A stretch of DNA of 64,000 nt, from contig NZ_JHQL01000004.1 of the NCBI RefSeq assembly GCF_000712975.1, positions 124,001 through 188,000 of the forward strand, written 5' to 3'. Position 1 is the stretch's first letter. Each line of letters opens with the position of its first letter. Below the pieces are notes generated by a model. The model saw nothing but the letters and a program-made list of their open reading frames with translations. It did not search any database and was not told the DNA's origin. Origin of the DNA: Vreelandella neptunia (GTDB lineage: Bacteria > Pseudomonadota > Gammaproteobacteria > Pseudomonadales > Halomonadaceae). Both the position numbers and the translations under genes were made by a program. Of this stretch, positions 3,161-40,241 are shown in pieces.

Positions 3161-4000
3161 TCAACAGACTTGTGGCTCACTCGCTGTGCGACATGCCCTG
3201 ATACTCTCAGCAAACTCTTTGACTAAACCATGCACGCGTTCAACGGCGTCGTCAGGCGTGTTGGCATGCTCAATACAGTCAACCAGCGCAGAGCCGACCA
3301 CCACTGCATCGCTAAAGCGGCCAATGGTGGCTGCTTGCTCGGCGGTACGAATGCCAAAACCAACGGCAATGGGTAGCTCGGTGTGCTCGCGCAGTTGCTC
3401 AACTGCGCTTTCCAACCGCGCTGGCGTGGGTGCACTGCCACCGGTAACCCCCGCAACGGAGACGTAATAGATAAATCCAGAAGCGTTACTCAACACTTTG
3501 GGCAGCCGTTTAGCATCCGTGGTCGGGGTTGCTAAGCGAATAAAATCAATGCCGTGTTGCACCGCTGGCTGGCAGAGTTCTTCATCGTGCTCGGGGGGTA
3601 AATCCACCACAATCAGGCCATCTACCCCTGCACGGGCGGCATCCGCTAGAAAGCGCTCAACGCCATAACAGTAAATCGGGTTGTAGTAGCCCATCAGCAC
3701 GATAGGCGTGGTGCCATTTTGTTCGCGGAAACGGCGCACCATGTCTAGCGTCTTGGCTTGCGTTTGGCCGCCTTCAAGTGCACGCAGCGCGGCTTTTTGA
3801 ATGGCGGGCCCATCGGCCATCGGGTCACTGAACGGCATACCAAGTTCGATGATGTCTACACCGGCTTCTGGCAACCCATGTAGCAAGCGGCGCGAAGTCT
3901 CAGCATCTGGGTCGCCTGCCGTCAGGTAGCTGACCAGCGCTGGGCGATTTTGCTGTTTGAGCGCCGCAAAGCAGTGCTCAAGGCGAGAAGAGTGGTTCAT
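3161..4000 (-). CDS. trpA: Tryptophan synthase alpha chain
   Basis: Cleaves indole-3-glycerol phosphate to indole and glyceraldehyde-3-phosphate; indole is channelled to TrpB in the alpha2-beta2 complex. The 279-residue product has the family signature [15 protein letters not shown] with catalytic Glu52 and Asp63 (equivalents of E49/D60), plus GFGI (phosphate loop) near the C-terminus. The start at [10 protein letters not shown] has AAGGAG 7 bases upstream; an in-frame ATG 8 codons earlier is less likely. It follows trpB by 20 bases on the same strand, the usual trpBA pair. The other trp genes are not in this window, as in pseudomonads. Confidence 0.97.
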
Positions 4001-4020
4001 AGCTGGCTCCTTGTGCGCGC

Positions 4021-5238
4021 TCATAGGTGTTTAACGCCGAATTTGTCGCCCAGGTGATGGGCCACGCTCATCATGTCCTTATCGCCACGACCGCTTAGGT
4101 TAATCACCATTAGGTGCTCGCGTGGCAACGTTGGCGCACGCTTGGCGACTTCGGCCAGGGCGTGTGCGGTTTCAAGGGCAGGAATAATGCCTTCTTGGCG
4201 GCAGCAGACCTGAAAGGCTTCCAGCGCTTCGTCGTCGGTGGCGGAGACGTACTCTACCCGCCCCTGCTCATGAAGCCATGCGTGCTCTGGGCCAATGCCG
4301 GGATAATCCAACCCCGCTGAAATTGAGTGGGCATCAATAATCTGGCCATCTTCATTCTGCAGCAGGTAGGTGCGGTTGCCGTGCAGCACCCCTGGCGTGC
4401 CGCCATTCAGGCTGGCTGCATGCAGGCCGCTTTTAACCCCTTTTCCGCCGGCCTCTACGCCAATCATCTTCACATCTGGATCGTTGATGAAGGGATAGAA
4501 CAGCCCCATGGCGTTAGAACCACCGCCGACACAAGCGACCAGTGAATCCGGCAAGCGGCCCTGCTTTTCAAGCATTTGACTGCGGGTTTCATGGCCAATC
4601 ACCGCTTGGAAGTCGCGCACCATGGCGGGGTACGGGTGCGGCCCAGCCACGGTGCCAATAATGTAGAAGGTGTCGTCGACATTGGTTACCCAGTCGCGCA
4701 GCGCTTCGTTCATGGCGTCTTTCAGGGTGCCGGTGCCTGATGTGACCGGCACGATTTCTGCCCCCAACAGTTTCATACGAAAAACATTGGGCTGCTGACG
4801 TTCGATGTCGGTTGCGCCCATATAGATAACGCAAGGCAAGCCAAAGCGCGCGGCTACCGTGGCGGTGGCCACCCCGTGCATACCAGCGCCGGTCTCGGCA
4901 ATAATGCGTTTTTTGCCCATCTGCTTGGCTAAGAGCACTTGGCCGATGCAGTTGTTAATCTTATGTGCGCCGGTGTGGTTTAACTCTTCACGCTTAAGGT
5001 AAATACTCGCCCCGCCGAAATGCTCGGTCAGACGTTCAGCGAAATAAAGCGGGCTTGGCCGCCCCACATAGTCCCCTTGAAAATAGGCGAGCTGGCGTTG
5101 GAACTCGGGGTCTTTTTTCGCGGCGGCGTATTCGTCTTGCAGCTCTAGAATGAGCGGCATGAGTGTTTCAGCGACAAAGCGGCCGCCGAAGCTGCCAAAT
5201 AGCCCGTTGGCATCGGGCAGATTCACGAATTGGTTCAT
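4021..5238 (-). CDS. trpB: Tryptophan synthase beta chain
   Basis: PLP enzyme condensing indole with L-serine to tryptophan. The 405-residue length is standard. The PLP lysine lies in HTGAHKINN (K93), and the phosphate-binding loop GGGSNAMG is intact. The start MNQFVNLPD has AGAGG upstream; the 35 preceding codons run into the trpI promoter region and are not family-like. It is divergently arranged with a TrpI-type LysR gene across 139 bases, so induction by indoleglycerol phosphate through that regulator is likely, as known in Pseudomonas. Confidence 0.97.
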
Positions 5239-24544: not shown

Positions 24545-25936
24545 TTACTGCCTAACGCTTTGACGACGATTAGGCAGATAGGCCAGCGTCACACTGACAA
24601 CAATAGACGCCAGAAGCGCCCCTAAAAATGGCCCAAGCGTGGGAATACTGCCGGGGAACGTTGCTGCCACAATACCCGCGCTGACACTTCCCTGACTTAT
24701 CCAGCCTGGCAGTATTGCTCCTACCAACCCTGCCATACCACCCCCTATCGCCGCCAGAGGCGTCATACGTTGCCACAGGCCAAGCAGCACCGGCACCACG
24801 ATGGCAGCGCACAGTAAGTCAGCGATTAAGAATAGTCGCAGTACCGACAACCCCTGCAACGCAATCAGCACTACTGGCACCATCATGGCGACCGTTATCC
24901 AACGAGCAGTCGTTAAAGAAGCTGTATGCCGTTCACCGCCACGTCCAACAATCAGCGACGCGATGCCATTTTGAAGCGTATCAACACTTGAGGTTACCAA
25001 CGTGACAGCCAGCACTAAGGCGGGCAGTGCTACCCACACCGGCGCATCGGTTAACAGTGCAAAGAAGGGAATAGGCGGCTCTCCAAGTGGCACTCCACTC
25101 ATCGCGGCCATCATGCCGACACCGCCAATGACCATCACCACCAACACGGTCATACCGCCGCCTAGCCAAGCACCTCGGCCTAAGCTCTGGTCATCCTGGG
25201 CAGCCCATACACGCTGCCAATAGCCTTGATGGAAAAGATTGGCGGCGGTCACCGCAATGACAAGTGTAAGAGCAACGCTGAGCGCACTTGTGATAGGAAT
25301 AGAAGGCATCACTGCGTCATTCGGCATGGTTGGCAGCCGCCATATGGCAACGCTGCCAACAGCTGCTAACAGGGCCAACAAAAGCCACGCTTGCCAGCGA
25401 TCCGTGGCGAGGCTTGCCCGTAGCCCACCAACCACCGTGTACACCAAGGTTGTGAGCGCAACACCAATAATCACCAGCGCCGGAGGTACCTCTGACAGCA
25501 GCGAGGTAATCGCGCCGATGGCCGTTAGTTCCGCCGCTAAAAAACAGCCCATATAAGCAACAGAGGCCAGCGATACCCAGCGACGCACGCCTTTGCCATA
25601 ACAGGCATCAGCAAATTCAGCAATGCTTCTGCCCTCTGGCAAAGCACGGCGAATTTTTGGCCCGTAAAGCCCTAAGACAATAAACGGCAGCGCAGAGCCT
25701 ATTGCATAGCCTGCGAGCGCTAATGGCCCAACAAACGCACCTATTTCAGGCGGTGCAAACAAAATCCAAGCGCCCATTCCCGAGGCTAAAAATGAGAACC
25801 CCAGCGTGGACGCCGTTTGCGAATTGCGTGCTGTCACGTAGTCATCGAGCGACCCCTGCACATGGCGTGCCCGAAGGCCCAAAAAGGCAAAGCAAAGTAG
25901 TGCCGCACCCAGTACGGCTGATGTTAGGTAAGGCAT
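24545..25936 (-). CDS. SSS-family symporter, predicted thiamine (or precursor) transporter
   Basis: A 463-residue sodium:solute symporter with about 13 hydrophobic helices; TVVGGLRASLATDRWQ and LAVTLVTSSVDTLQNGIASL are SSS signatures. Its mRNA leader is a TPP riboswitch (25943-26030), so the cargo is most likely thiamine or a thiamine precursor; Rodionov and co-workers proposed such an SSS transporter under the name ThiV. The SD GGAGGAA is embedded in the riboswitch 3' side, so translational control is likely. Confidence 0.85.
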   Translation of the reverse strand: MPYLTSAVLGAALLCFAFLGLRARHVQGSLDDYVTARNSQTASTLGFSFLASGMGAWILFAPPEIGAFVGPLALAGYAIGSALPFIVLGLYGPKIRRALPEGRSIAEFADACYGKGVRRWVSLASVAYMGCFLAAELTAIGAITSLLSEVPPALVIIGVALTTLVYTVVGGLRASLATDRWQAWLLLALLAAVGSVAIWRLPTMPNDAVMPSIPITSALSVALTLVIAVTAANLFHQGYWQRVWAAQDDQSLGRGAWLGGGMTVLVVMVIGGVGMMAAMSGVPLGEPPIPFFALLTDAPVWVALPALVLAVTLVTSSVDTLQNGIASLIVGRGGERHTASLTTARWITVAMMVPVVLIALQGLSVLRLFLIADLLCAAIVVPVLLGLWQRMTPLAAIGGGMAGLVGAILPGWISQGSVSAGIVAATFPGSIPTLGPFLGALLASIVVSVTLAYLPNRRQSVRQ

Positions 25937-25942
25937 GTCGCA

Positions 25943-26030
25943 CTTCCTCCGCCGGTATTAACCGGATCAGGTTCCAGGGTCTGCGCAGTGCGCATTCTCA
26001 GCCCATCAGTGTGGAGCTCCCCTGGCGACA
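25943..26030 (-). promoter_or_regulatory. TPP (THI-box) riboswitch
   Basis: Read leftwards, the leader contains the invariant TPP-aptamer elements in order: GGGCTGAGAA (P2/P3 side), ACCCTGGAACCTGATCCGG and TAATACCGGCGGAGGAA (P4/P5 side). The terminal GGAGGAA is also the SD of the symporter gene 8 bases before its ATG, implying that ligand binding hides the ribosome-binding site. Outer boundaries are approximate. Confidence 0.95.
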
Positions 26031-26144
26031 GTGAATGGAGACGCTATCCTCGGTGAAAGTGGTTCGTTAGTAAAGGTTGGGCGTTAGTAAAATCTGTCAG
26101 TGAGTAACGCCTAGGTGGGTAACTTTTTTCCTACTATTTTCCCT

Positions 26145-29456: not shown

Positions 29457-30515
29457 ATGCAGACCTTTAGCTGTCGCTGTGGCAACCCGCTTTTTTTTGA
29501 AAACACGTATTGCTTGGCCTGCGAATCCGAGGTGGGCTGGTGCCCAACCTGCTCAGCTATTGTAGCTCTTGAACCGCTACCAAATGGAGGATACCGCTGC
29601 ACTCACCCAGACTGTGGATCCACCTTAATGAAGTGCCATAACTATGCGGTTGAGAATGTATGCAACCGAATGGTAGTGATGGTCGAGGGGCATGCCGATA
29701 CGCTTTGCGACTGCTGCCGCTTTAATGAAGTGATTCCCGACTTAACTATCAATGGCAACCGGGAGCGCTGGGCTGCGCTTGAAGCTGCCAAGCGACGGCT
29801 ATTTCTCACATTAGACTTACTCACGCTTCCCTACGGCGTCAGCGGTGAAAACATTCGTGTTCCGCTTAGCTTTTCGTTTATGGCAGATGCCTTGCCCGAT
29901 CAAGGCCTTTGGCGCTCTACCGCTAGCCAGGAAAAGATATACACCGGCCATGCCAATGGTCATATCACGATCAACGTGAAAGAAGCCGACGACGTTGAAC
30001 GCGAGCGCCTGCGGGTTGATATGAATGAGTCCCACCGCACTCTCATCGGCCACTTCCGCCATGAAATTGGTCACTACTATTGGGATTTATTGGTAAAAGG
30101 ACGCGATGAAGACACCTGCCGCCACGTGTTCGGAGATCACAACAACCCTACCTACGGTGATGCCTTAGAACGGTATTACCAACAGGGAACGCCTGCTGAT
30201 TGGTCAACACAGTTTATTTCTGCCTACGCCTCGATGCACCCCTGGGAAGACTTTGCGGAAACCTTTGCGTACTACTTAGATATGGTCGCTGTGCTCGATA
30301 CAGCGCGTCATATGGGGCTTTCCCGCACCGAACACAACGGCACATTAGACGGCATGTTACGAGCATTCCATCAGGTAGGCATGGCCGTAAACGAACTCAA
30401 TCGTGATATGGGACTGCTGGATTTAGCACCGAGCGTCATTGCCCCGGCGGTGAGACAGAAGCTGACGTATCTGCATCAACTGATTCTTAATGCGAACGCC
30501 AGCCCCCGTACTTAA
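29457..30515 (+). CDS. Zinc-ribbon putative metallopeptidase
   Basis: A 352-residue protein of the putative zinc-binding metallopeptidase family. The N-terminus (1-90) is a Cys-rich zinc ribbon with pairs CRC, CLAC, CPTC, CTHPDC and CDCC. The protease domain has HFRHEIGHYYWD, giving zinc ligands His202 and His206 with general base Glu203, and a downstream PWEDFAETFAYYLD whose Glu264 or Glu268 may be the third ligand. SD CAGGAGG. Its gene ends 6 bases from the convergent alpha-E gene; the family regularly accompanies alpha-E/ATP-grasp/transglutaminase clusters, so it may process the cluster's product (inference). Confidence 0.85.
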   Translation: MQTFSCRCGNPLFFENTYCLACESEVGWCPTCSAIVALEPLPNGGYRCTHPDCGSTLMKCHNYAVENVCNRMVVMVEGHADTLCDCCRFNEVIPDLTINGNRERWAALEAAKRRLFLTLDLLTLPYGVSGENIRVPLSFSFMADALPDQGLWRSTASQEKIYTGHANGHITINVKEADDVERERLRVDMNESHRTLIGHFRHEIGHYYWDLLVKGRDEDTCRHVFGDHNNPTYGDALERYYQQGTPADWSTQFISAYASMHPWEDFAETFAYYLDMVAVLDTARHMGLSRTEHNGTLDGMLRAFHQVGMAVNELNRDMGLLDLAPSVIAPAVRQKLTYLHQLILNANASPRT

Positions 30516-30521
30516 CAACCG

Positions 30522-31520
30522 TTAATCGTTGTCGTGCTCTCCTGCGTGGCTTTGCGACTGGCGCTGGGTCACGCGGGGAACGCCATCACTGTTGACAAAA
30601 TAGGTTGCGCTTAGCGTGTCGTGAATCGCCGCGAAACCAATCTGCAGTTCATCCACAAACGCGTGTAGTTTGCTGGGGGAGTGAGCCAACGCCTGAATGT
30701 CGGCGTCGACCACATCGGCTCGTACAAGCGACACCGTTGCCGCCGCTCGGTCTTGCCTGGGTAACAGCTGTAGCTCGTGCCCCACCGTTTCCAGGCTGCA
30801 GGCAATAGAGCGTGGTAGGTGGGGGTCCTGCAGCAAAAAGCGCAGCACGTCAGGCCCACGCACCCGCAAACGGACTTGCTGCCGGTACATTTGGTAAGCA
30901 GTGAGCGACTTCAGCACGCTCATCCACTGCAAATTTTCAAACGGCAGCAGTTCCTCTGGATTTTGCGGCAGCAAACTGGCGGACCGAACATCGACAATTC
31001 GGGTCGTCATATCTGCCCGCTCTAAATGGCGACCTAACTTGATGAAGGTGCGAGCAGGCCCATGGCTTAGCGTACCTTCTATTAAGCCTGTCAATGTCTG
31101 GCAGCCGCGAATTACACTTTTCAAAAAGGTGTCGCGGCGCCGCGGACTAACGCCATTTTCGGCATGATCTGCAACACTCAAATAGAGTTGATTGACCTCT
31201 TCCCAGATCTCTCTTGGCACGACATCACGAGTGGTACGCAGGTTTTCCCTAGCGCTCGCTAAGGCGGCAAGAATAGAGCTGCCATTTTGCGCGTCTGCAC
31301 ACAGAAAGTGCACCACGCTACGCTCGTCAAAACTTGAATGTCGCTCATTAAACGCTTCCAACGTGCCGGTCATTTCAATTAACGGCGCCCAGCCCAGGGG
31401 CAAGTGACGCGGCAGATCCAGCATTAGGTGGCTATTAACACTCAGCAACCGAGCAGTATCTTCGGCCCGTTCGATGTAACGCGCCATCCAGTAGAGGTTT
31501 TCAGCAACGCGTGACAGCAT
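30522..31520 (-). CDS. Alpha-E domain protein
   Basis: A 332-residue all-helical alpha-E (COG2307-type) protein. The family hallmark is at the N-terminus: MLSRVAENLYWMARYIERAE, followed by DTARLLSVNSHLMLD. The alpha-E domain is known only with circularly permuted ATP-grasp partners and has no proven activity. SD AAGGAG. It starts 4 bases after the ATP-grasp stop codon, so the two are co-translated. A second alpha-E copy is fused to another ATP-grasp in the gene at 36970-39375. Confidence 0.92.
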   Translation of the reverse strand: MLSRVAENLYWMARYIERAEDTARLLSVNSHLMLDLPRHLPLGWAPLIEMTGTLEAFNERHSSFDERSVVHFLCADAQNGSSILAALASARENLRTTRDVVPREIWEEVNQLYLSVADHAENGVSPRRRDTFLKSVIRGCQTLTGLIEGTLSHGPARTFIKLGRHLERADMTTRIVDVRSASLLPQNPEELLPFENLQWMSVLKSLTAYQMYRQQVRLRVRGPDVLRFLLQDPHLPRSIACSLETVGHELQLLPRQDRAAATVSLVRADVVDADIQALAHSPSKLHAFVDELQIGFAAIHDTLSATYFVNSDGVPRVTQRQSQSHAGEHDND

Positions 31521-31524
31521 GGCG

Positions 31525-33009
31525 CTAGACTCCTTCCTGCTCAGCGGCAACTGCCGCGTTCTCATCGGTTTCAACAATCCAAGTATCTTTACTGCCGCCC
31601 CCTTGAGAAGAGTTAACCACCAGTGAGCCCTCCACCAGGGCGACCCGGGTCAAGCCACCAGTGGTGACGTGGGTTTCCGGCCCAGAAAGAATAAACGGGC
31701 GAAGGTCTACGTGGCGCGGCTGGGGCAAGCCGTTAGCCAGCGTCGGCGTCGTCGAAAGTGCCAGCGTTGGCTGTGCCATATAGTTACGGGGATTGGCTTT
31801 AATTAAGCGTGCAAACTCATCGCGAGTTTCTTTAGTAGAACGAGGGCCTATCAACATGCCATAGCCGCCGGATTCATTTGCTGGCTTCACCACCAGCTCA
31901 TCCAAATGCTCCAACACATACTTGCGATCATCTTCAAACATACATAAATAACTTGGTACGTTTGGCAGCAGCGGTTCTTGGTCTAGATAGTAACGAATGA
32001 TTTCAGGGACAAAGGCGTACACGACTTTATCGTCGGCGACTCCCGCCCCAGGGGCATTAGCAAGCGCTACTTTCCCCGCCCGCCAAGCGCGCATTAGGCC
32101 GGCCACCCCAAGCATTGAATCTGGATTAAACGCTTCAGGATCGAGAAACTCGTCGTCTACACGACGATAAATCACATCGACACGGCGCAACCCTTCCACA
32201 GTCCGCATATAAACCACGTCGTCGTCATCGACCAGCAAGTCGCTACCTTGCACTAACTCAACTCCCATTTGCTGAGCAAGATACGCATGTTCAAAGTAGG
32301 CGGAGTTATAGATACCAGGCGTTAGCACTACCACTTGAGGGTCGTCACCTGGGCGAGGCGACATCGACGCTAACATGTCATATAGCTGGGCAACGTAGTC
32401 GTCTACGGGAAGAATTTTGCCAGATGCAAAAAGCTCAGGCAGCACACGCTTGGTTACATTACGATTTTCCAGCATGTACGAAACCCCAGAGGGAATACGC
32501 AAATTGTCTTCTAGTACATAAAGCGTGCCATCACCGCCACGCACTAAGTCTGACCCGCAAATATGCGCCCAAATGCCATGAGGAGGGTTGATACCAACAC
32601 ACTGGGGGCGGAAGTTAACCGATTGCGCCAACACTTCAGCAGGTAACACTTTGTCTTTAATTACTTTTTGATCGTGATAAAGATCATCAATAAATAGATT
32701 AAGCGCTTGCACGCGTTGTTTTAAACCCGCTTCAGTTTTACGCCACTCACTGGCAGGAATAATTCGCGGCACAATATCAAAAGGCCAAGCGCGATCAATC
32801 ATCGCGCCTTCTGAATAAACGGTAAAGGTAATCCCCATGGTGCGAATGGCAATTTCTGCTGCGGTTTTACGCTCTGCCAACTCCTCTGCACTAAACCTTG
32901 CCAACATATTACACAGCTCATCAGCCGAGGCTCGTGGCTTGCCTGGCGCCGCTAGTAACTCATCGTAATAGTCACGGCACGCATAGTTATTCCAATTCAC
33001 TTGGCTCAT
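31525..33009 (-). CDS. Circularly permuted type-2 ATP-grasp protein
   Basis: A 494-residue ATP-grasp enzyme of the circularly permuted type (COG2308), predicted to form amide bonds through an acyl-phosphate. Visible: VLEDNLRIPSGVSYMLENR (165-183), the RVDVIYRRVDD acidic motif (276-286), and the nucleotide-binding lysine plus Gly loop VVKPANESGGYGM (373-385, K375). TTGGLTRVALVEGS and SSQGGGSKDTW end the fold. SD CCAGGAG; the longer frame's 33 Cys/Arg-rich leading codons are rejected. Operon with alpha-E, divergent from the transglutaminase-DUF2126 gene. Confidence 0.93.
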   Translation of the reverse strand: MSQVNWNNYACRDYYDELLAAPGKPRASADELCNMLARFSAEELAERKTAAEIAIRTMGITFTVYSEGAMIDRAWPFDIVPRIIPASEWRKTEAGLKQRVQALNLFIDDLYHDQKVIKDKVLPAEVLAQSVNFRPQCVGINPPHGIWAHICGSDLVRGGDGTLYVLEDNLRIPSGVSYMLENRNVTKRVLPELFASGKILPVDDYVAQLYDMLASMSPRPGDDPQVVVLTPGIYNSAYFEHAYLAQQMGVELVQGSDLLVDDDDVVYMRTVEGLRRVDVIYRRVDDEFLDPEAFNPDSMLGVAGLMRAWRAGKVALANAPGAGVADDKVVYAFVPEIIRYYLDQEPLLPNVPSYLCMFEDDRKYVLEHLDELVVKPANESGGYGMLIGPRSTKETRDEFARLIKANPRNYMAQPTLALSTTPTLANGLPQPRHVDLRPFILSGPETHVTTGGLTRVALVEGSLVVNSSQGGGSKDTWIVETDENAAVAAEQEGV

Positions 33010-33210
33010 GGGCGCTCTCCTGGCGCAATGGTGGAAGCGGCAACTTCCTCTTACGTAGTGCAGGCCTAGCCCCGCGCGATCTACGCAGTTCTCTTCACAT
33101 ATAAGCACGCAAAATGCATACCATCTTTTTCGCTATTTCAACGTTAAAAGGATGCTTTCAATACGCACCCTCGCCCACCGTCTACTAGCGACGCTACTAC
33201 TACTGGCAGC

Positions 33211-33290
33211 GCTACTAATAACTACGCTACTAATAACAATGCTGCTTATAACAACACTGCTAATAACACGCTGCTTATAACACGCTGCTA
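33211..33290. repeat. Degenerate 14-15-bp tandem repeat
   Basis: Five full units and a partial sixth of a GCTRCTWATAACAAY-like motif: three 15-mers (starting 33211, 33226, 33241), then two 14-mers and a short remnant. Unit length resembles the other minisatellite at 3038-3093 but the sequences differ. It lies between the divergent ATP-grasp and transglutaminase operons. Confidence 0.75.
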
Positions 33291-33441
33291 ATCTCTCTAA
33301 TGCCCCCTCTACTGAACCGTTACTTTTAGTGAATAGCTGAGCGCTCACTTAAAGCCACAAACAAAAGCACCAAAATAGTGCGCACCACTAACTCTAATGG
33401 TGCATTTTATGTTTTTCACACTTCTTAAACGGCTTAGTTAA

Positions 33442-33457
33442 TTTTGCAGCTGCAAAA
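33442..33457. promoter_or_regulatory. Perfect 16-bp palindrome, candidate operator
   Basis: TTTTGCAGCTGCAAAA is a perfect dyad about 100 bases before the transglutaminase-DUF2126 start, in the shared divergent region. Size and symmetry suit a dimeric regulator. No regulator gene is encoded in the cluster, so the partner is unknown. Confidence 0.45.
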
Positions 33458-33554
33458 AAACCTAACTACAACGATACTGCCGTAACTTAGCTCTTTTTAT
33501 CGAGGCGTCTTAATGACGAATCGGTTGATATAGACTTAACCCAGAGGGTGGCTT

Positions 33555-36500
33555 ATGACCATTCGTGTTGCCTTGTATCACCGAACTACTTATCACTTTG
33601 ACCGTCCGGTGAAGTTGTCACCCCATGTTGTTCGTTTGCGCCCAGCACCTCATTGCCGAACCCATATCGATGCCTATTCGCTGAATATTTCTGGTAATGA
33701 TCACTATCTAAACTGGCAGCAAGACCCCTTTGGTAACTTTAATGCCCGCATTGTGTTTCCAGAGCCTCGCAAAGAACTAACCATTGCGGTCGAACTTATC
33801 GCCCCAATGACCGTTATCAACCCGTTTGATTTTTTCCTCGACGACATCGCACAAAAAATCCCGTTTGCCTATCCAGAAGAACTCAGCAAAGAACTGGGGC
33901 CTTATCTTGAAGTTACTGAGGCAGGCCCAAAGCTGATGGCGTGGCTTGAAGAAGTTCCCAGGGAGCCCACTGTCAGCGTTGATTTTTTAGTGGCCCTTAA
34001 TCAGCGCCTTCAGAACGACATCAGCTATCTGGTGCGTATGGAGCCGGGCGTTCAGAGCTGCGAAGAGACATTGACCCTGGCCAGCGGCTCCTGTCGCGAC
34101 AGTGCCTGGCTTCTGGTTCAGATTCTGCGGCACTTGGGGCTTGCCGCCCGCTTTGTATCGGGTTATTTGATTCAGCTAGCGCCTGATGTCAAAGCACTTG
34201 ATGGCCCAAGCGGCACAGAGGTCGACTTCACCGACCTGCACGCCTGGACAGAAGTTTTTCTACCCGGCGCGGGCTGGGTTGGCTTAGACCCAACGTCAGG
34301 CCTCTTTGCTGGAGAAGGCCATATTCCCCTTGCAGCCACGCCGACAACCGGTAGTGCCGCCGCGATTACCGGTTTTTCTGATAAATGCGAGGTAGAGTTT
34401 AGTGTGGAAATGCGCATCGAGCGTATCCACGAAGACCCACGCGTCACTAAGCCCTACAGTGAGCAGCAGTGGCAGGAAATTTTGCAGCTGGGCGACCAGG
34501 TTGATAAGGAGCTTAATAAGCAAGACGTCCGCCTGACCATGGGCGGCGAACCTACGTTTGTTTCCGTTGATGACATGGAAAGCCCACAGTGGAACATTGA
34601 GGCGCTTGGTGACCATAAACGTGAACGCGCCGAAGTGCTGCTGAGCCGTTTGCAGGAAGCTTATGCTCCTGGCAGCGTCATTCAACAGCAGCAGGGTAAA
34701 TGGTACCCCGGCGAGCCGCTGCCCCGCTGGGCGCTAGCATGTTACTGGCGTAAAGATGGCGTACCGCTTTGGCGTGACGCCAAATGGCTTGCCTGCATGG
34801 AGGGCGCCCCAAAAGTAGCGGTTGATGATGCCATGACACAGCGGTTTACCCAGGCGCTTAGCGAACGTCTAGGCATAGCCCCACATTATTGGATACCCGC
34901 TTTCGAAGACGCCTACTACTATCTTTGGAAAGAGCAGACGCTCCCGGTCAGTATCGATCCGCGCAAAGCCGATTTAAAAGATGATGCCGAACGCCGCCGT
35001 CTGGCACGGCTACTTGAGCAAGATTTAGCGGCAGTCGTTGGTTATGCCTTGCCACTGCGTCATTCAGTTTCCCAATCCCATCGCTGGGAAAGTGGGCGCT
35101 GGCCACTCAAACGCGATCATTTATTTTTGGTGCCTGGCGACTCACCTATGGGCCTGCGGCTGCCGCTTTCTGCGCTGCCCTGGGCCGATCCTGAAGAGCA
35201 GCCCCAGCCTGAGTCACTGTTCGCGCCACGACCGGAAATTGGCGACATTCACGGCGAAGTCGCCAGACGACACGCCGAACAACACCGTTTGAGTAGCGTC
35301 GAGCGCCATGGTCAAAGCCTCCACCCCAGCCTGAGCCATCCCGAAGGGGAAGCCGTTCAGCAGCAGCCCCTTCCCGAGAATGACCGCGATCATAAAGTGA
35401 TTCATACCAGTCTGTGCATAGAGCCCCGTGACGGTCGTCTGCATATCTTTTTGCCGCCGCTCACCCGGCTAGAACACTACTTGGACCTCCTCAGCAGTAT
35501 TGAAGAGTGCGCACGAACGCTTAGCTGTCCAGTGATGATCGAGGGCTACTCGCCGCCCCGTGATCCGCGTCTTGAAAACTTTATGATCACCCCCGACCCC
35601 GGTGTTATCGAAGTTAACATCATGCCAGCGGCTAGCTGGAAAACCCTGGTCGCTCAAACCGAGCGACTCTATGAGGAAGCCCGGCTAGCACGCTTGTGCA
35701 CCGAAAAGTTTATGCTCGATGGCCGTCATACGGGCACCGGTGGCGGCAACCATGTCACTCTTGGCGGTATTACGCCCGATGATTCCCCCTTCCTGCGCCG
35801 TCCTGATTTATTAGCAAGCCTGGTCACTTATTGGCAGCACCACCCAAGCCTTTCGTACCTCTTTTCAGGCCTGTTTATTGGCCCTACTAGCCAGGCTCCA
35901 CGTGTCGATGAGGCTCGCCATGAGGCGCTTTACGAGCTGGAAATTGCATTACAACAAATGCCTGAAGGAGACGTTGTTCAGCCTTGGCTAGTGGATCGCT
36001 TGCTGCGCCACCTGCTCACCGACTTAACCGGCAACACTCATCGTGCTGAATTCTGCATTGATAAACTTTACTCGCCAGATAGTGACAGCGGTCGTTTAGG
36101 GCTTTTAGAACTGCGCGGTTTTGAGATGCCACCCCACGCTCGCATGAGCTTAATGCAGATGCTGCTGATTCGCGCGCTTGTCGCCCGCTGCTGGAAAGCG
36201 CCCTACCGTGCGAAGCCTGTTCGATGGGGAAGCGCTCTACAAGATCGTTGGATGCTACCCCACTATTTGTGGGAAGACTTAGGCGATGTACTGAGTGACC
36301 TGGGTCATCATGGCTTTGATTTTAAGCGTGAATGGTTTGCACCTTTTCTTGAATTCCGCTTCCCTGTTCACGGACGACTGCATACCCCAATGCTGGATAT
36401 TGAGCTGCGCCAAGCTATCGAGCCCTGGCATGTGCTCGGTGAAGAGACCTCTGCTGGCGGCACCTCCCGCTACGTCGACTCCTCTGTGGAGCGTTTGGAA

Positions 36501-36905
36501 ATTAAAGTCAGCGGTATGAGCGGCAGCCGCTATAAGGTGACCTGCAATGGCCGTCTGGTACCACTATCTCCCACTGGCCGTAACGGTGAAGCGGTTGCCG
36601 GTGTCCGCTACCGCGCCTGGCAGCCACCCTCGGCGCTACATCCGCAAATCCCTATTCATGCCCCACTGGTATTTGATGTATTAGATACCTGGAATCAACG
36701 TTCCGTTGCAGGCTGCACCTACCATGTGACACACCCCACCGGCCGCAGCTTTGAAACATTCCCCGTGAATGCATTTGAAGCGGAAGCCCGTCGTCTAGGT
36801 CGGTTCAGTGATGATGGCCACCGCCATGGTTACCAGTCGCCTAGCGCTGAAACACCTAGCCAAGAATTGCCCAACACGCTAGATCTTCGCTGGAGGCCAA
36901 GCTAA
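33555..36905 (+). CDS. Transglutaminase-DUF2126 fusion protein
   Basis: A 1116-residue two-part protein. Residues 1-290 form a bacterial transglutaminase-like domain with an N-terminal beta region and a complete Cys-His-Asp triad: Cys180 (ASGSCRDSAWLL), His229 (DLHAWTEVFLPG) and Asp245 (VGLDPTSG). From about residue 325 to the end is DUF2126 (COG4196): TMGGEPTFVS at 328-337, HTGTGGGNHVTLGG from 725, and FCIDKLYSPDSDSGRLGLLE later. DUF2126 is regularly found with permuted ATP-grasp and alpha-E genes; its own activity is not established. SD GAGGGTGGCTT. It is followed by the ATP-grasp/alpha-E fusion after 64 bases. Confidence 0.93.
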   Translation: MTIRVALYHRTTYHFDRPVKLSPHVVRLRPAPHCRTHIDAYSLNISGNDHYLNWQQDPFGNFNARIVFPEPRKELTIAVELIAPMTVINPFDFFLDDIAQKIPFAYPEELSKELGPYLEVTEAGPKLMAWLEEVPREPTVSVDFLVALNQRLQNDISYLVRMEPGVQSCEETLTLASGSCRDSAWLLVQILRHLGLAARFVSGYLIQLAPDVKALDGPSGTEVDFTDLHAWTEVFLPGAGWVGLDPTSGLFAGEGHIPLAATPTTGSAAAITGFSDKCEVEFSVEMRIERIHEDPRVTKPYSEQQWQEILQLGDQVDKELNKQDVRLTMGGEPTFVSVDDMESPQWNIEALGDHKRERAEVLLSRLQEAYAPGSVIQQQQGKWYPGEPLPRWALACYWRKDGVPLWRDAKWLACMEGAPKVAVDDAMTQRFTQALSERLGIAPHYWIPAFEDAYYYLWKEQTLPVSIDPRKADLKDDAERRRLARLLEQDLAAVVGYALPLRHSVSQSHRWESGRWPLKRDHLFLVPGDSPMGLRLPLSALPWADPEEQPQPESLFAPRPEIGDIHGEVARRHAEQHRLSSVERHGQSLHPSLSHPEGEAVQQQPLPENDRDHKVIHTSLCIEPRDGRLHIFLPPLTRLEHYLDLLSSIEECARTLSCPVMIEGYSPPRDPRLENFMITPDPGVIEVNIMPAASWKTLVAQTERLYEEARLARLCTEKFMLDGRHTGTGGGNHVTLGGITPDDSPFLRRPDLLASLVTYWQHHPSLSYLFSGLFIGPTSQAPRVDEARHEALYELEIALQQMPEGDVVQPWLVDRLLRHLLTDLTGNTHRAEFCIDKLYSPDSDSGRLGLLELRGFEMPPHARMSLMQMLLIRALVARCWKAPYRAKPVRWGSALQDRWMLPHYLWEDLGDVLSDLGHHGFDFKREWFAPFLEFRFPVHGRLHTPMLDIELRQAIEPWHVLGEETSAGGTSRYVDSSVERLEIKVSGMSGSRYKVTCNGRLVPLSPTGRNGEAVAGVRYRAWQPPSALHPQIPIHAPLVFDVLDTWNQRSVAGCTYHVTHPTGRSFETFPVNAFEAEARRLGRFSDDGHRHGYQSPSAETPSQELPNTLDLRWRPS

Positions 36906-36969
36906 TGCTTTCCTATTGACACAAGCTGCAGGATAATTCGCAGCCTATTCGCTTAGGACGACAAGGAAA

Positions 36970-39375
36970 ATGACGGCCCCAGTCTCTCCCACTCTTCTCG
37001 AGCCCGGCACAGCCGGGCTTGTGGAGGACTACTTCAACCAACTTTGCGAGGGACAGCCAGGCGTCTTTGATGCCATGGTTGACCGTTATGGTCAGCTGCG
37101 GCCAGGTTGGGAAACCCTTCTTAGGGCGCTTGAAGCACTCGGGACCGATGGCCGCCTTCAGCAGCGTGAAGAAATCCAGCGACTGTTGGCTGAAAATGGC
37201 GTTATCTTCAACATGCATGATGAGGCCAAGCGCTCCTGGCGGCTGGACCCGCTGCCCTGGGTGATTAACCACACCGACTGGCAAGCGCTTGAAGTAGGCT
37301 TGCGTCAACGCACTCGCTTACTCAATGCTCTCTTTGACGATATCTACGGAGCACGCCGCCTGTTTGATACCGGCCTACTCCCTACCCAGGCGCTGCTTGC
37401 TTCGCCGCATTTGCTACTACCGTGTCACGGCTCGCAGCCAAGTGACCGTCCAGCCATCAACTTTCACGGCGTTGATGTGATTCAGGATGCCGAAGGTCAG
37501 TGGCGCGTGATTGGCGACCGCTTACAGGCTCCTTCCGGTACCGGTTTCACCCTTGAAAACCGCATATTGATGGCGCGGGCACTGCCTGACATGTACCGCA
37601 ATGCGCCACTTAAACGATTAGCGGGCTTTCTCGATAATTACCACCGCACGCTTATTGCCCTTGCCTACCAGCACCGTGACAACCCAAACGTTGTACTACT
37701 GACACCTGGACCGGGCAGCCCACGCTATTTTGAGCACGCCTACCTGGCTAACTATCTCAATATTGACCTTGCCGAGGGGCAGGACTTAATCGTTAGAGAT
37801 TCACAGCTATGGCTTCGCACTCTAGGCGGTTTGCAACCGGTGGATGTGGTGCTGCGCCATTGTGATGACGCCTACTGCGACCCACTTGAGCTGCGCGGTG
37901 ACTCTCAGTTAGGCGTGCCCGGTTTACTTCAAGCTGCTCGTGCCGGAGGGGTAGCGATGTCCAATGCGTTAGGCGTAGGCATTTTGGAATCACCCGAGCT
38001 TGCCGATTACCTGCCTGCCCTCTGCGAGCATTTGCTAGGCGAAAAACTGCTACTGCCGAACGCCAATGCCGCCACGCGACCGGCCACGGCACCCATATTT
38101 GACCATCAGATGCAGCGTTTATCGCCTACCACCATGAACCTGCGCTGTTTTATTACTCGCTCGCCGGGAAGTATCGCCAGTTCAGGCCAGCAGCCAAGCG
38201 ACTACCACGTTATGCCGGGTGGTTTAGCCTGGGTAGGTACGCCGGGTTCGCCATCGTTGAATAGTCCTGTTGTGAAAGATGTGTGGGTAACGGCCAGCAC
38301 GCCCCAGCCTCATGTCAGCCAACTTCGCCAGGCCCGCGGCCCAGTAGTCGCCACCCGGGATGGCACAGACTTACCCAGTCGCGTGGCCGAAAGTCTGTTT
38401 TGGTTAGGACGCTACGGCGAACGCCTGGATGCACGGGCACGCTTGCTACGTGAAGCGCTGATGCGCTTGCTGGAAGTTGATCAAGATGAAATCGCCGACC
38501 AGTTACTTGATGAACTGTTGATCGCCCTGGAAATCACTACGCTTAACGAAGATAGCGAAAACAGCAAACCGCCGCTGGTCGGCTTTGTGCAGAAACGCGC
38601 AGCCCTGCTAGCCCAATTTGACACCACAGACACCCAGGCCTTACATGCCCTGTTTGATCAGCTACTGCGTAACGCCCGTAGCGTACGTGACCACCTAGGC
38701 GATGACTCTTGGCGGGTGATTAACCAGCTTCGCCAACGCGTCAGCGGTTTTAACTCAAGCCTGGGTGCCAGTGCCGCACGACGTGCCTGTGAAGGGCTTT
38801 CTGCTCAAATAGCCGCTTTTTTTGGCTTATGCAACGAAACCATGCCCCACCACTACGGCTGGCGGTTTATGGATATTGGGCGCTTTTTAGACCGCGTCTT
38901 AGGCCTGCTGTCGCTGCTCAAGCTGACCCTTAATGCTCCTCACTCTCCCGGCCTTGCGCTCTGGGAAGTAGTGCTGGCCACCACCGACAACTTTACTGCG
39001 TATCGCAGGCGCTATCGCAGCGAGCTACATCCAGAAGCGATTTTAGACCTACTGCTCTTTGATGAAACTAACCCGCGCTCCGTGGGCTACATGCTCAAAC
39101 GCCTTGAGCGGCAAATGAACCGCCTGCCTGGTAGCTCTTCACCCTATCGTAACGCGGAGCGGCGCCTGTTAATTCAGGCCAACGCCGCTCTGCATTTGGC
39201 CGATATTGATCGCCTTAGCCACCTTACCGACACCCCCGAAGCGCAAGAAGCGCTAGAGCAGTTGCTTGATGAACTGATTGAACCGCTAACAGCACTTTCC
39301 GATGCTATCAGCCACAGCCATTTCAGCCATGTCGAGCGGCCGCGCCAATTAGTTAGCATGGAGCCTGATGCATGA
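36970..39375 (+). CDS. ATP-grasp/alpha-E fusion protein with a shortened ATP-grasp domain
   Basis: An 801-residue fusion: permuted ATP-grasp region (about 70-445; GDRLQAPSGTGFTLENRILM at 182-201, VVLLTPGPGSPRYFEHAYLA at 241-260) followed by alpha-E (from about 469, SRVAESLFWLGRYGERLDAR). Compared with the stand-alone paralogue at 31525-33009, the sequence jumps from LLLPNANA (about 361-368) straight to APIFDHQMQRLSPTTMNLR, so the roughly 60 residues that hold the VVKPANESGGYG lysine and glycine loop are missing. The frame is open throughout. The ATP-grasp half may be a pseudoenzyme. It overlaps the next transglutaminase gene by 4 bases (ATGA). Confidence 0.9.
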   Translation: MTAPVSPTLLEPGTAGLVEDYFNQLCEGQPGVFDAMVDRYGQLRPGWETLLRALEALGTDGRLQQREEIQRLLAENGVIFNMHDEAKRSWRLDPLPWVINHTDWQALEVGLRQRTRLLNALFDDIYGARRLFDTGLLPTQALLASPHLLLPCHGSQPSDRPAINFHGVDVIQDAEGQWRVIGDRLQAPSGTGFTLENRILMARALPDMYRNAPLKRLAGFLDNYHRTLIALAYQHRDNPNVVLLTPGPGSPRYFEHAYLANYLNIDLAEGQDLIVRDSQLWLRTLGGLQPVDVVLRHCDDAYCDPLELRGDSQLGVPGLLQAARAGGVAMSNALGVGILESPELADYLPALCEHLLGEKLLLPNANAATRPATAPIFDHQMQRLSPTTMNLRCFITRSPGSIASSGQQPSDYHVMPGGLAWVGTPGSPSLNSPVVKDVWVTASTPQPHVSQLRQARGPVVATRDGTDLPSRVAESLFWLGRYGERLDARARLLREALMRLLEVDQDEIADQLLDELLIALEITTLNEDSENSKPPLVGFVQKRAALLAQFDTTDTQALHALFDQLLRNARSVRDHLGDDSWRVINQLRQRVSGFNSSLGASAARRACEGLSAQIAAFFGLCNETMPHHYGWRFMDIGRFLDRVLGLLSLLKLTLNAPHSPGLALWEVVLATTDNFTAYRRRYRSELHPEAILDLLLFDETNPRSVGYMLKRLERQMNRLPGSSSPYRNAERRLLIQANAALHLADIDRLSHLTDTPEAQEALEQLLDELIEPLTALSDAISHSHFSHVERPRQLVSMEPDA

Positions 39376-40241
39376 AGTACACCCTGCGGCACACCACGCG
39401 CTATCATTACAGCGCACCCGTCACACTATGTCATAGTGAGGCACGGGTGTTGCCGCGCAAAACGCTGCACCAAGAGTGCGGCGCATCCGAGCTAACCATT
39501 AGCCCACTGCCGCAGGTTCAAGCAGAACGACGCGACGTATTCGGTAATCGCGTACTTTATTTTGCCATGGAGGATATTCACCAGACGTTAGACGTCACGG
39601 TGGTCACCCAGCTGAATACCCAGCCGCTGCCCCCACTGCCCACGACGTCTCCTGGCTGGGAGAGTGTCGCCGAACAGCTCAACAGCGATTGCCGCTTTGA
39701 TATGCAGCTGTATCGCCTGGACTCGCCGTTTATTCGCCGTAACGAGGACTTAGCCGCTTTTGCTCGCAGCTGCTTTACGCCCGGGCGTCCGCTGGTAGAG
39801 AGCGCCTTGGCGCTCAATCAACTGATCTACGATACCTTCGAGTATGACCCCAGCTTCACCACGCTTGCTACTCCGCTTAGTGATGTGCTGGCTAACCGTC
39901 GTGGGGTATGCCAAGACTTTGCTCACCTAGCGATTGGAGCGCTGCGCTCGATAGGCTTGGCCGCACGCTATGTCAGCGGCTATCTAGAAACCCAGCCGCC
40001 GCCCGGACAGCCAAGGCTGGTGGGGGCAGACGCATCTCACGCATGGCTTGCGACCTGGATTCCCGATTGGGGCTGGCTAGCACTCGACCCCACCAACGGT
40101 ACCCTTGCTGGCGAACAGCACCCAGTGCTGGCCTGGGGACGTGACTACGCGGATGTTGCACCATTAAAAGGGGTAATGAATGGCGGCGGCGACCATAAGC
40201 TAGAGGTGGAAGTGGATGTGATGCCAATTAGCGCTGAATAA
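39372..40241 (+). CDS. Transglutaminase-like protein
   Basis: A 289-residue stand-alone transglutaminase-like protein with the bacterial N-terminal beta region (MKYTLRHTTRYHYSAPV) and catalytic triad Cys180 (NRRGVCQDFAHLAIGALRSI), His223 (DASHAWLATWIP) and Asp239 (LALDPTNG). No signal peptide, so cytoplasmic. Its ATG overlaps the stop of the ATP-grasp/alpha-E fusion, so the two are co-translated. Such enzymes may act as peptidases, amidases or cross-linkers; the role in this cluster is not known. Its last 14 bases overlap the convergent TRAP permease gene. Confidence 0.92.
   Translation: MKYTLRHTTRYHYSAPVTLCHSEARVLPRKTLHQECGASELTISPLPQVQAERRDVFGNRVLYFAMEDIHQTLDVTVVTQLNTQPLPPLPTTSPGWESVAEQLNSDCRFDMQLYRLDSPFIRRNEDLAAFARSCFTPGRPLVESALALNQLIYDTFEYDPSFTTLATPLSDVLANRRGVCQDFAHLAIGALRSIGLAARYVSGYLETQPPPGQPRLVGADASHAWLATWIPDWGWLALDPTNGTLAGEQHPVLAWGRDYADVAPLKGVMNGGGDHKLEVEVDVMPISAE

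Follow-up and report, generated by a model that had tools for sequence, protein, structure and literature searches.

Why would a gene cluster hold one ATP-grasp protein with all its catalytic residues and a second one from which they have been lost? The question is raised by six genes of Vreelandella neptunia, at positions 29457 to 40241 of what we call the window, the whole 64,000-nucleotide stretch of DNA that was analysed (assembly GCF_000712975.1, contig NZ_JHQL01000004.1, positions 124,001 to 188,000). All six proteins gave Pfam matches far above the cut-off (Table 1), NCBIfam had no name for any of the five that are not peptidases, and the permuted ATP-grasp, Alpha-E and transglutaminase genes stand side by side. 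The Pfam matches and the conserved neighbourhood described below bear out the original prediction that the six genes belong to one predicted ligation system, which would carry out amide or peptide ligation and be of the ATP-grasp/Alpha-E/transglutaminase/DUF2126 kind. The answer to which we give a probability of roughly 0.5 is that the cluster encodes an amide-ligation and hydrolysis system that is switched on when nitrogen is scarce and that has a pair of ligases, one active and the other inactive.

The cluster is divided between two operons that diverge from a control region of about 545 bp. On the left are the stand-alone, circularly permuted ATP-grasp gene and, downstream of it, the stand-alone Alpha-E gene, on which the Peptidase_Mx metallopeptidase gene converges; the right operon begins with a gene for a transglutaminase fused to DUF2126, continues with one for an ATP-grasp fused to Alpha-E and ends with a transglutaminase-like gene. 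The proposal that the system is encoded on both sides of one control region thus describes the ligase operons well, but the metallopeptidase sits at the outer end, pointing towards Alpha-E.

This kind of system is already known from the amidoligase and peptide-ligation systems of Iyer et al. (2009), whose content is given here as related in the accessible parts of later citing papers (PMC5666114, PMC6376114, PMC3597751). The families and the operon logic are the same (ATP-grasp with Alpha-E and transglutaminase, with DUF2126), whereas in the window one ATP-grasp looks dead, both modules and Peptidase_Mx are arranged around one control region, and there is no Anbu. The loss of catalytic residues from the fused ATP-grasp, while its gene is retained, looks to be new in this analysis; the literature searched, mostly partial texts and including searches for inactivity and pseudoenzymes, held no mention of an inactive partner, although Iyer et al. 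(2009) may have it.

Intact and altered ligases

The two ATP-grasp proteins were compared by aligning 92 fused with 94 stand-alone sequences, after removal of stand-alone rows outside 450-570 aa (450-560 aa in family loci) and of fused rows shorter than 600 aa in family loci or 700 aa elsewhere. In ATP-grasp enzymes an E-x-N motif holds magnesium, and a lysine and a glycine loop bind ATP. Every one of the 94 stand-alone proteins has these features (E167, N169, K375 and the GGYG loop), and the stand-alone protein of the window, which has a solved relative (PDB 3n6x, E 1.2e-163), is the probable working ligase of the cluster. A Yersinia ATP-grasp of a sister operon frees phosphate from ATP, according to the part of PMC6376114 that was available. 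A sequence search with the stand-alone Alpha-E protein found no solved relative.

The fused proteins have lost N169 in 92/92 cases, E167 in 91 (the protein of locus L136 retains the Glu) and K375 in 44. Instead of E-D-N-L-R they have D-R-x-Q, a motif of their own clade, with R at position 169 in 79 of the 92 and Q at position 171 in 87. In the window's fused protein the presumed Mg-ligand positions are Gly182 and Arg184 (E to G, N to R), and the Lys/GGYG segment is wholly missing, as it is in eight close relatives (9/92 fused proteins together). The Glu/Asn Mg ligands and the Lys/glycine loop that would mark an active ATP-grasp are both gone, and the protein is, to judge from its sequence, very probably catalytically dead; the cluster would therefore not contain two working ATP-grasp ligases. 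An ATP-grasp/Alpha-E fusion had been predicted at this place, and both domains are there, but the ATP-grasp is incomplete (the PF14403 match covers only positions 1-271 of 374). Outside the aligned set, an ATP-grasp/Alpha-E fusion with intact motifs (L054) was found, and therefore fusion by itself is not what makes the pseudo-enzyme.

Has the altered gene been maintained? The fused proteins are monophyletic with support 1.0 (the stand-alone ATP-grasps also form one clade after midpoint rooting, with a support of only 0.628), and more than 50 columns are at least 93 percent conserved among them. Pairwise dN/dS of the window's fused gene against four close relatives is 0.031-0.058, a rough ratio as dS exceeds 2, which indicates purifying selection that is weaker than on the stand-alone ligase (0.006-0.010 among close relatives, equally rough). 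Modelled with a mean pLDDT of 82.8, the fused protein has 3n6x as its best match in a fold search (E 1e-21), followed by glutathione and glutathionylspermidine synthetases; beyond ATP-grasp relatives, none of the 50 matches listed had an E below 0.04. A second Alpha-E accompanies the fused gene in 49 of 50 genomes, the exception being a Singulisphaera metagenome-assembled genome (G353) with the fused Alpha-E only; of the 51 loci in which the fused gene is full-length, this count leaves out one (L176). Likewise, 17/17 genomes with a fused Alpha-E in the class survey described below have a second one. An Alpha-E motif pattern, which matched 36/92 fused proteins, was too strict and its result was not used.

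The other predicted ligase of the cluster is the DUF2126 protein, whose closest named relative is from Vreelandella olivaria (91 percent) and whose transglutaminase domain has C180, H229 and D245 invariant in 56/56 sequences; the Cys, His and Asp motifs were found in all 21 transglutaminase-like sequences checked, both window proteins included. Also invariant in 56/56 are E332, E686, H733, R830, E852 and R854, which would match active-site residues of glutamine synthetase (GS). That DUF2126 is a GS-like amidoligase ('amidoligase' also stands in its Pfam family name) is unproven: the model has a mean pLDDT of 76.5, and its fold search is dominated by the transglutaminase domain (3isr, E 1.9e-11), GS homologues coming only at E 0.06 and above. 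DUF2126 had no match by name in the literature searched. Besides the full-length DUF2126 protein, class-survey genomes G284, G143, G254, G148 and G263 have a variant that is shorter (its frame measures about 713-718 aa) and matches more weakly.

Conservation of the cluster and its peptidases

Two surveys were made, one of 101 genomes of the family (Halomonadaceae), V. neptunia included, and one of 229 genomes of the class. The family survey found DUF2126 in 22, Alpha-E in 28 and Peptidase_Mx in 38 genomes, and the conserved neighbourhood that had been expected in relatives was confirmed when gene order was compared: all six gene kinds occur together in 20 of the 22 DUF2126 genomes, our own among them. 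One of these clusters is divided between two contigs; in genome G062 an IS66-family transposase (PF03050; L034, about 3330-4960) interrupts the fused gene, whose longer piece is one of our 92 fused rows. The two exceptions are G078, without a peptidase at the locus, and G086, which is fragmentary. In the class survey DUF2126 was found in 38 genomes and full-length Peptidase_Mx in 31 (of 38 with any match, those weaker than E 1e-70 being dropped), with Alpha-E, which occurs in 63/229 overall, accompanying all of them; the association of Peptidase_Mx with Alpha-E has a Fisher P of 4e-21, a guide only as related genomes are not independent. Of 33 full-length Peptidase_Mx matches in the class, 18 lie within 15 kb of an Alpha-E gene.

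The best 80 named DUF2126 loci out of at least 586 relatives, some of them ended by contig edges, belong by their record titles to Gammaproteobacteria, Betaproteobacteria, Bacteroidota, Planctomycetes, Verrucomicrobia, Nitrospirota and others. Among these 80 there are 53 with the fused type of ATP-grasp/Alpha-E, 54 with a further transglutaminase, 41 with ATP-grasp, 40 with Alpha-E, 17 with Anbu and 8 with Peptidase_Mx. No unlabelled family (frames of at least 100 aa within 4 kb of cluster genes) occurred in more than 11 of 149 loci. The family that did reach 11, about 400 aa long, is spread over several groups (L118:8463-9785, and L088, L089, L103, L113, L120, L126, L130, L147, L172 and L177); the one member scanned had no Pfam or NCBIfam match, and no member turned up in loci from the closest relatives of the window.

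Is the metallopeptidase a stand-in for Anbu? The window protein is a clear Peptidase_Mx (Pfam E 2.6e-85), and HExxH is present in 52/52 Peptidase_Mx proteins compared. The absence of Anbu from the locus, as predicted, was upheld, and extends to the genome: its single PF00227 match is HslV by NCBIfam and adjoins HslU, and a search with a structure-confirmed Anbu protein as query found no Anbu. This query is the better test, as PF00227 misses some Anbu (0 families for two of six tested), while two labelled Anbu proteins that were tested match solved Anbu structures (5lox, E 4.2e-87 for the query). In the family survey Anbu is present in 3/101 genomes, of which only G002 has DUF2126. The further proposal that the metallopeptidase takes Anbu's place holds as a description of this locus. 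In the class, 12 of the 18 loci fetched around Peptidase_Mx (matches near Alpha-E or DUF2126 among the 33 full-length ones, our own excluded) hold both peptidases, and at least 22 of 31 genomes with full-length Peptidase_Mx have a second PF00227 protein, the Anbu identity of each being unproved. As both share loci across the class, Peptidase_Mx is an extra rather than a substitute, and we reject replacement as a general rule. In L065-L068, L070-L074, L076, L078 and L081, Peptidase_Mx and Anbu stand alongside ATP-grasp and Alpha-E, often in opposite orientation.

Peptidase_Mx was also considered as a strict marker of the system and rejected, for although 31/31 class genomes with it have Alpha-E, 14 of 38 family genomes have no Alpha-E match. 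The unlinked Peptidase_Mx proteins examined form a second type, in which the motif reads HEIAH and the N-terminus differs. One is in V. neptunia itself (L062, G000:C4:102857-103558, about 21 kb to the left of the window), with no other cluster gene in the 7.5 kb fetched; others are in relatives without Alpha-E (L063, L064).

Nitrogen control, proposed mechanism and alternatives

What would switch on such a system? In the loci gathered, sigma54-type sites scoring at least 10 of 12 precede 35/99 ATP-grasp and 26/124 DUF2126 genes, compared to 33/1298 unlabelled open reading frames of the same loci (P 5e-25 and 8e-14, related genomes included). When only genes that are first in their operon are counted, the sites precede 32/85 ATP-grasp and 23/95 DUF2126 genes, against shuffle means of 2.45 and 1.4. 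Such sites are nearly nil before Alpha-E (0/100) and fused genes (1/95), and precede 6/107 transglutaminase genes (3/18 of those that are operon-first). In eight aligned close relatives, our own included, a left-hand site (TGGTAyGnnnnTTGC, scores 9-11 of 12) points towards the ATP-grasp gene in 8/8; at the right-hand place TGGAACGATACTTGC points towards the DUF2126 gene in five (L040-L043, L106), not in the window. An exact NtrC-type dyad (GCAC-N7-GTGC) is present in three of the eight (our own, L037 and L105), and is not enriched over the window as a whole (3 found, 2.08 expected). RpoN is encoded in the V. neptunia genome. Co-control of the two divergent operons is plausible, given that close relatives have sigma54-type sites and an NtrC-type dyad in the region that the operons share, but the window's right-hand site has decayed.

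Published data on relatives, taken from the accessible parts of the papers cited, concern nitrogen too. In Burkholderia cenocepacia H111, sigma54 and NtrC both have I35_5080-83 (DUF404/407, DUF403, a transglutaminase and a large transglutaminase protein) among their targets (PMC5491218). In Pseudomonas putida, PP_2686-2688 are up under nitrogen limitation, when the change of PP_2685 (Anbu), as given in the first of the three columns for strains, is only 1.12-fold (PMC7801951), and PP_2685 and PP_2688 are up on nitrate relative to ammonium (PMC8050072). A correlation of these domains with urea metabolism is reported for marine metagenomes (PMC3597751). Taken with the DNA signals in related bacteria, these data suggest that nitrogen shortage turns the cluster on, and V. 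neptunia may have the same control.

How close are these systems to the one in the window? The four-gene Anbu operon (ATP-grasp, Alpha-E, transglutaminase and Anbu; P. putida PP_2685-2688), whose response to nitrogen supply is in print, shares the families of the working ATP-grasp and Alpha-E, whereas the window is without Anbu and adds DUF2126, the pseudo-ATP-grasp and Peptidase_Mx. The B. cenocepacia genes are likened to ours by their description in the source: there too are an ATP-grasp, an Alpha-E, a transglutaminase and a large transglutaminase protein, four genes being named, and DUF2126 would presumably lie on the large one. Glutathionylspermidine synthetase/amidase and glutathione synthetase, the nearest ATP-grasp folds after 3n6x, have a ligase-plus-amidase logic, although they are distant in sequence (9-14 percent identity). 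Rv2566-Rv2569c of Mycobacterium tuberculosis, where a zinc metallopeptidase is also encoded, is presumably a comparable set of genes.

We envisage that the left operon supplies the working ligase, permuted ATP-grasp plus Alpha-E, and that the right operon supplies a second one, the probably GS-like DUF2126 fused to a transglutaminase-like thiol enzyme, as well as the dead ATP-grasp, to which an Alpha-E of its own is fused, and another transglutaminase-like enzyme. The dead protein may be a partner subunit of the live pair that acts as a scaffold, presents substrate or exerts allosteric control. The ligases might couple an amine to a carboxylate (that of glutamate or of a gamma-glutamyl peptide, perhaps), the thiol enzymes would move or release the amide, and the trimming of peptide portions would fall to the metallopeptidase; the outcome would be nitrogen salvage or the tagging of a target. 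Physical pairing, substrates and the direction of the pathway are thus our inferences; as for the chemistry, polyamine or amine glutamylation is the guess we favour, because the nearest folds perform such reactions. A bolder version, in which a widespread nitrogen-starvation system uses dead and live ATP-grasp/Alpha-E as an obligate two-part ligase that feeds the GS-like/transglutaminase fusion, and glutamylates or tags amines or proteins that are later reopened to free nitrogen, strikes us as improbable when taken whole; if true, the whole would be a new kind of pseudoenzyme-controlled nitrogen-salvage pathway. In either form, the nitrogen switch and the pairing of a dead with a live ligase offer concrete handles on the function of Anbu, for which PMC8665760, as far as available, states that 'no function is known', and of ATP-grasp, Alpha-E and DUF2126. 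If the pair is real, single-component assays and pull-downs may have missed a subunit whose gene often lies in a second operon.

Several observations weigh against this reading. A Lys is still found at the ATP-lysine column in 48/92 fused proteins, some of which may bind nucleotide, and GS homologues (4hpp, GmaS among them) were weak in the DUF2126 fold search (E 0.06-0.4, best 0.063, target TM about 0.3). For the sister operon, the available part of PMC6376114 reports a search that revealed no specific interaction between Anbu and its neighbours. The window's left sigma54-type site scores 9 of 12, which is not significant alone (p 0.07 against shuffles), and its right-hand site is decayed, so that the right operon may use another promoter; across the loci, 64/99 ATP-grasp and 98/124 DUF2126 genes have no site of 10 or above. 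The peptidases may fall outside the regulon, for neither Anbu (0/35) nor Peptidase_Mx (1/51) is enriched in sites. NtrC dyads precede 14/85 ATP-grasp and 8/95 DUF2126 lead genes, which are raw counts without a shuffle control, and they also precede Anbu (2/35, a rate near that of DUF2126), Alpha-E (2/100) and fused genes (2/95). Finally, all counts over related genomes are non-independent.

Could the fused ATP-grasp simply be a decaying duplicate without function? The lost catalytic residues, the whole segment missing from the window protein and its eight close relatives, and the gene split by a transposase in G062 would all fit. Decay does not fit the low dN/dS, the single clade with full support, or the many conserved columns with a clade-own motif in place of E-D-N-L-R, and on the strength of the columns, dN/dS and monophyly we reject this explanation as very unlikely. 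More serious is the view that the cluster tags and breaks down proteins in the manner of Pup or ubiquitin, an ATP-grasp attaching a tag, and removal or degradation being the task of peptidases, Peptidase_Mx in this locus and Anbu in others, a hypothesis that is in print for the sister Anbu operon (PMC6376114, in the part available). Nitrogen starvation would favour proteolysis, and both peptidases adjoin ligases in relatives. Against this, no widely conserved extra gene of at least 100 aa lies near the clusters (a tag could be shorter than the frames searched), the same part of PMC6376114 states that no peptidase activity of Anbu was found, and no unfoldase is among the window's six genes. We therefore hold tagging to be possible but doubtful.

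The remaining alternative, the idea of the original prediction and one that later papers, in their accessible parts, cite from Iyer et al. (2009), is a ligase-plus-peptidase pathway that makes a small peptide or peptide-like metabolite. A predicted amide/peptide-ligation system is what we find, with two predicted types of amide ligase in one cluster and fold relatives that produce glutathione-type peptides, but the cluster does not hold two working ATP-grasp ligases if the fused one is, as is very probable, dead. Nor is a transporter or tailoring enzyme widely conserved by the search for unlabelled families reported above, and control by nitrogen starvation suits salvage better than a nitrogen-rich product. 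A dedicated peptide product, like tagging, is in our view possible but doubtful, and the nitrogen-responsive amide-ligation and hydrolysis system with its unequal ligase pair is the reading we prefer.

Features of the locus

The features of the cluster and its control region are given in Table 1. For Alpha-E and the stand-alone ATP-grasp, the ATG starts at 31520 and 33009 were chosen over longer TTG/GTG frames.

Table 1. Coordinates of the cluster genes and control-region elements in the window
Feature	Position	Strand	Basis and remarks
Zinc ribbon (PF10005) and Peptidase_Mx (PF15887) metallopeptidase	29457-30515	+	Pfam; HExxH is HEIGH
Stand-alone Alpha-E (PF04168), 332 aa	30522-31520	-	Pfam
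Stand-alone circularly permuted ATP-grasp (PF14403/PF04174)	31525-33009	-	Pfam, alignment; motifs E167-D-N169, K375 and GGYG 381-384 intact
Sigma54-type -24/-12 site TGGTATGCATTTTGCG	33108-33123	-	Own score 9 of 12; about 100 bp upstream of the ATP-grasp start
15-bp tandem repeat, 5.7 copies	33210-33292		Between left sigma54-type site and NtrC-type dyad; absent from 7 aligned relatives
NtrC-type dyad GCACCAAAATAGTGC	33367-33381	+	Followed by a wider-spaced GCAC...GTGC pair, 33382-33403
Degenerate sigma54-type site TACAACGATACTGCC ahead of right operon	33467-33481	+	Alignment of 8
Transglutaminase N and core domains fused to DUF2126 (PF09899), predicted amidoligase	33555-36905	+	Pfam
Pseudo-ATP-grasp fused to Alpha-E	36970-39375	+	Pfam, alignment
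Point where the Lys/GGYG-loop segment is missing from the fused protein	38059-38064	+	Alignment; 61 stand-alone residues without counterpart
Stand-alone transglutaminase-like protein	39372-40241	+	Pfam, motif check; Cys/His/Asp motifs intact

The locus is flanked by a methylmalonate-semialdehyde-type dehydrogenase and a TRAP transporter, which were considered as parts of the system and rejected, being found, among the loci searched, only in those of the closest relatives. To the left of the cluster, the window also carries a TPP riboswitch on the minus strand (25926-26033; Rfam RF00059, 65.8 bits).

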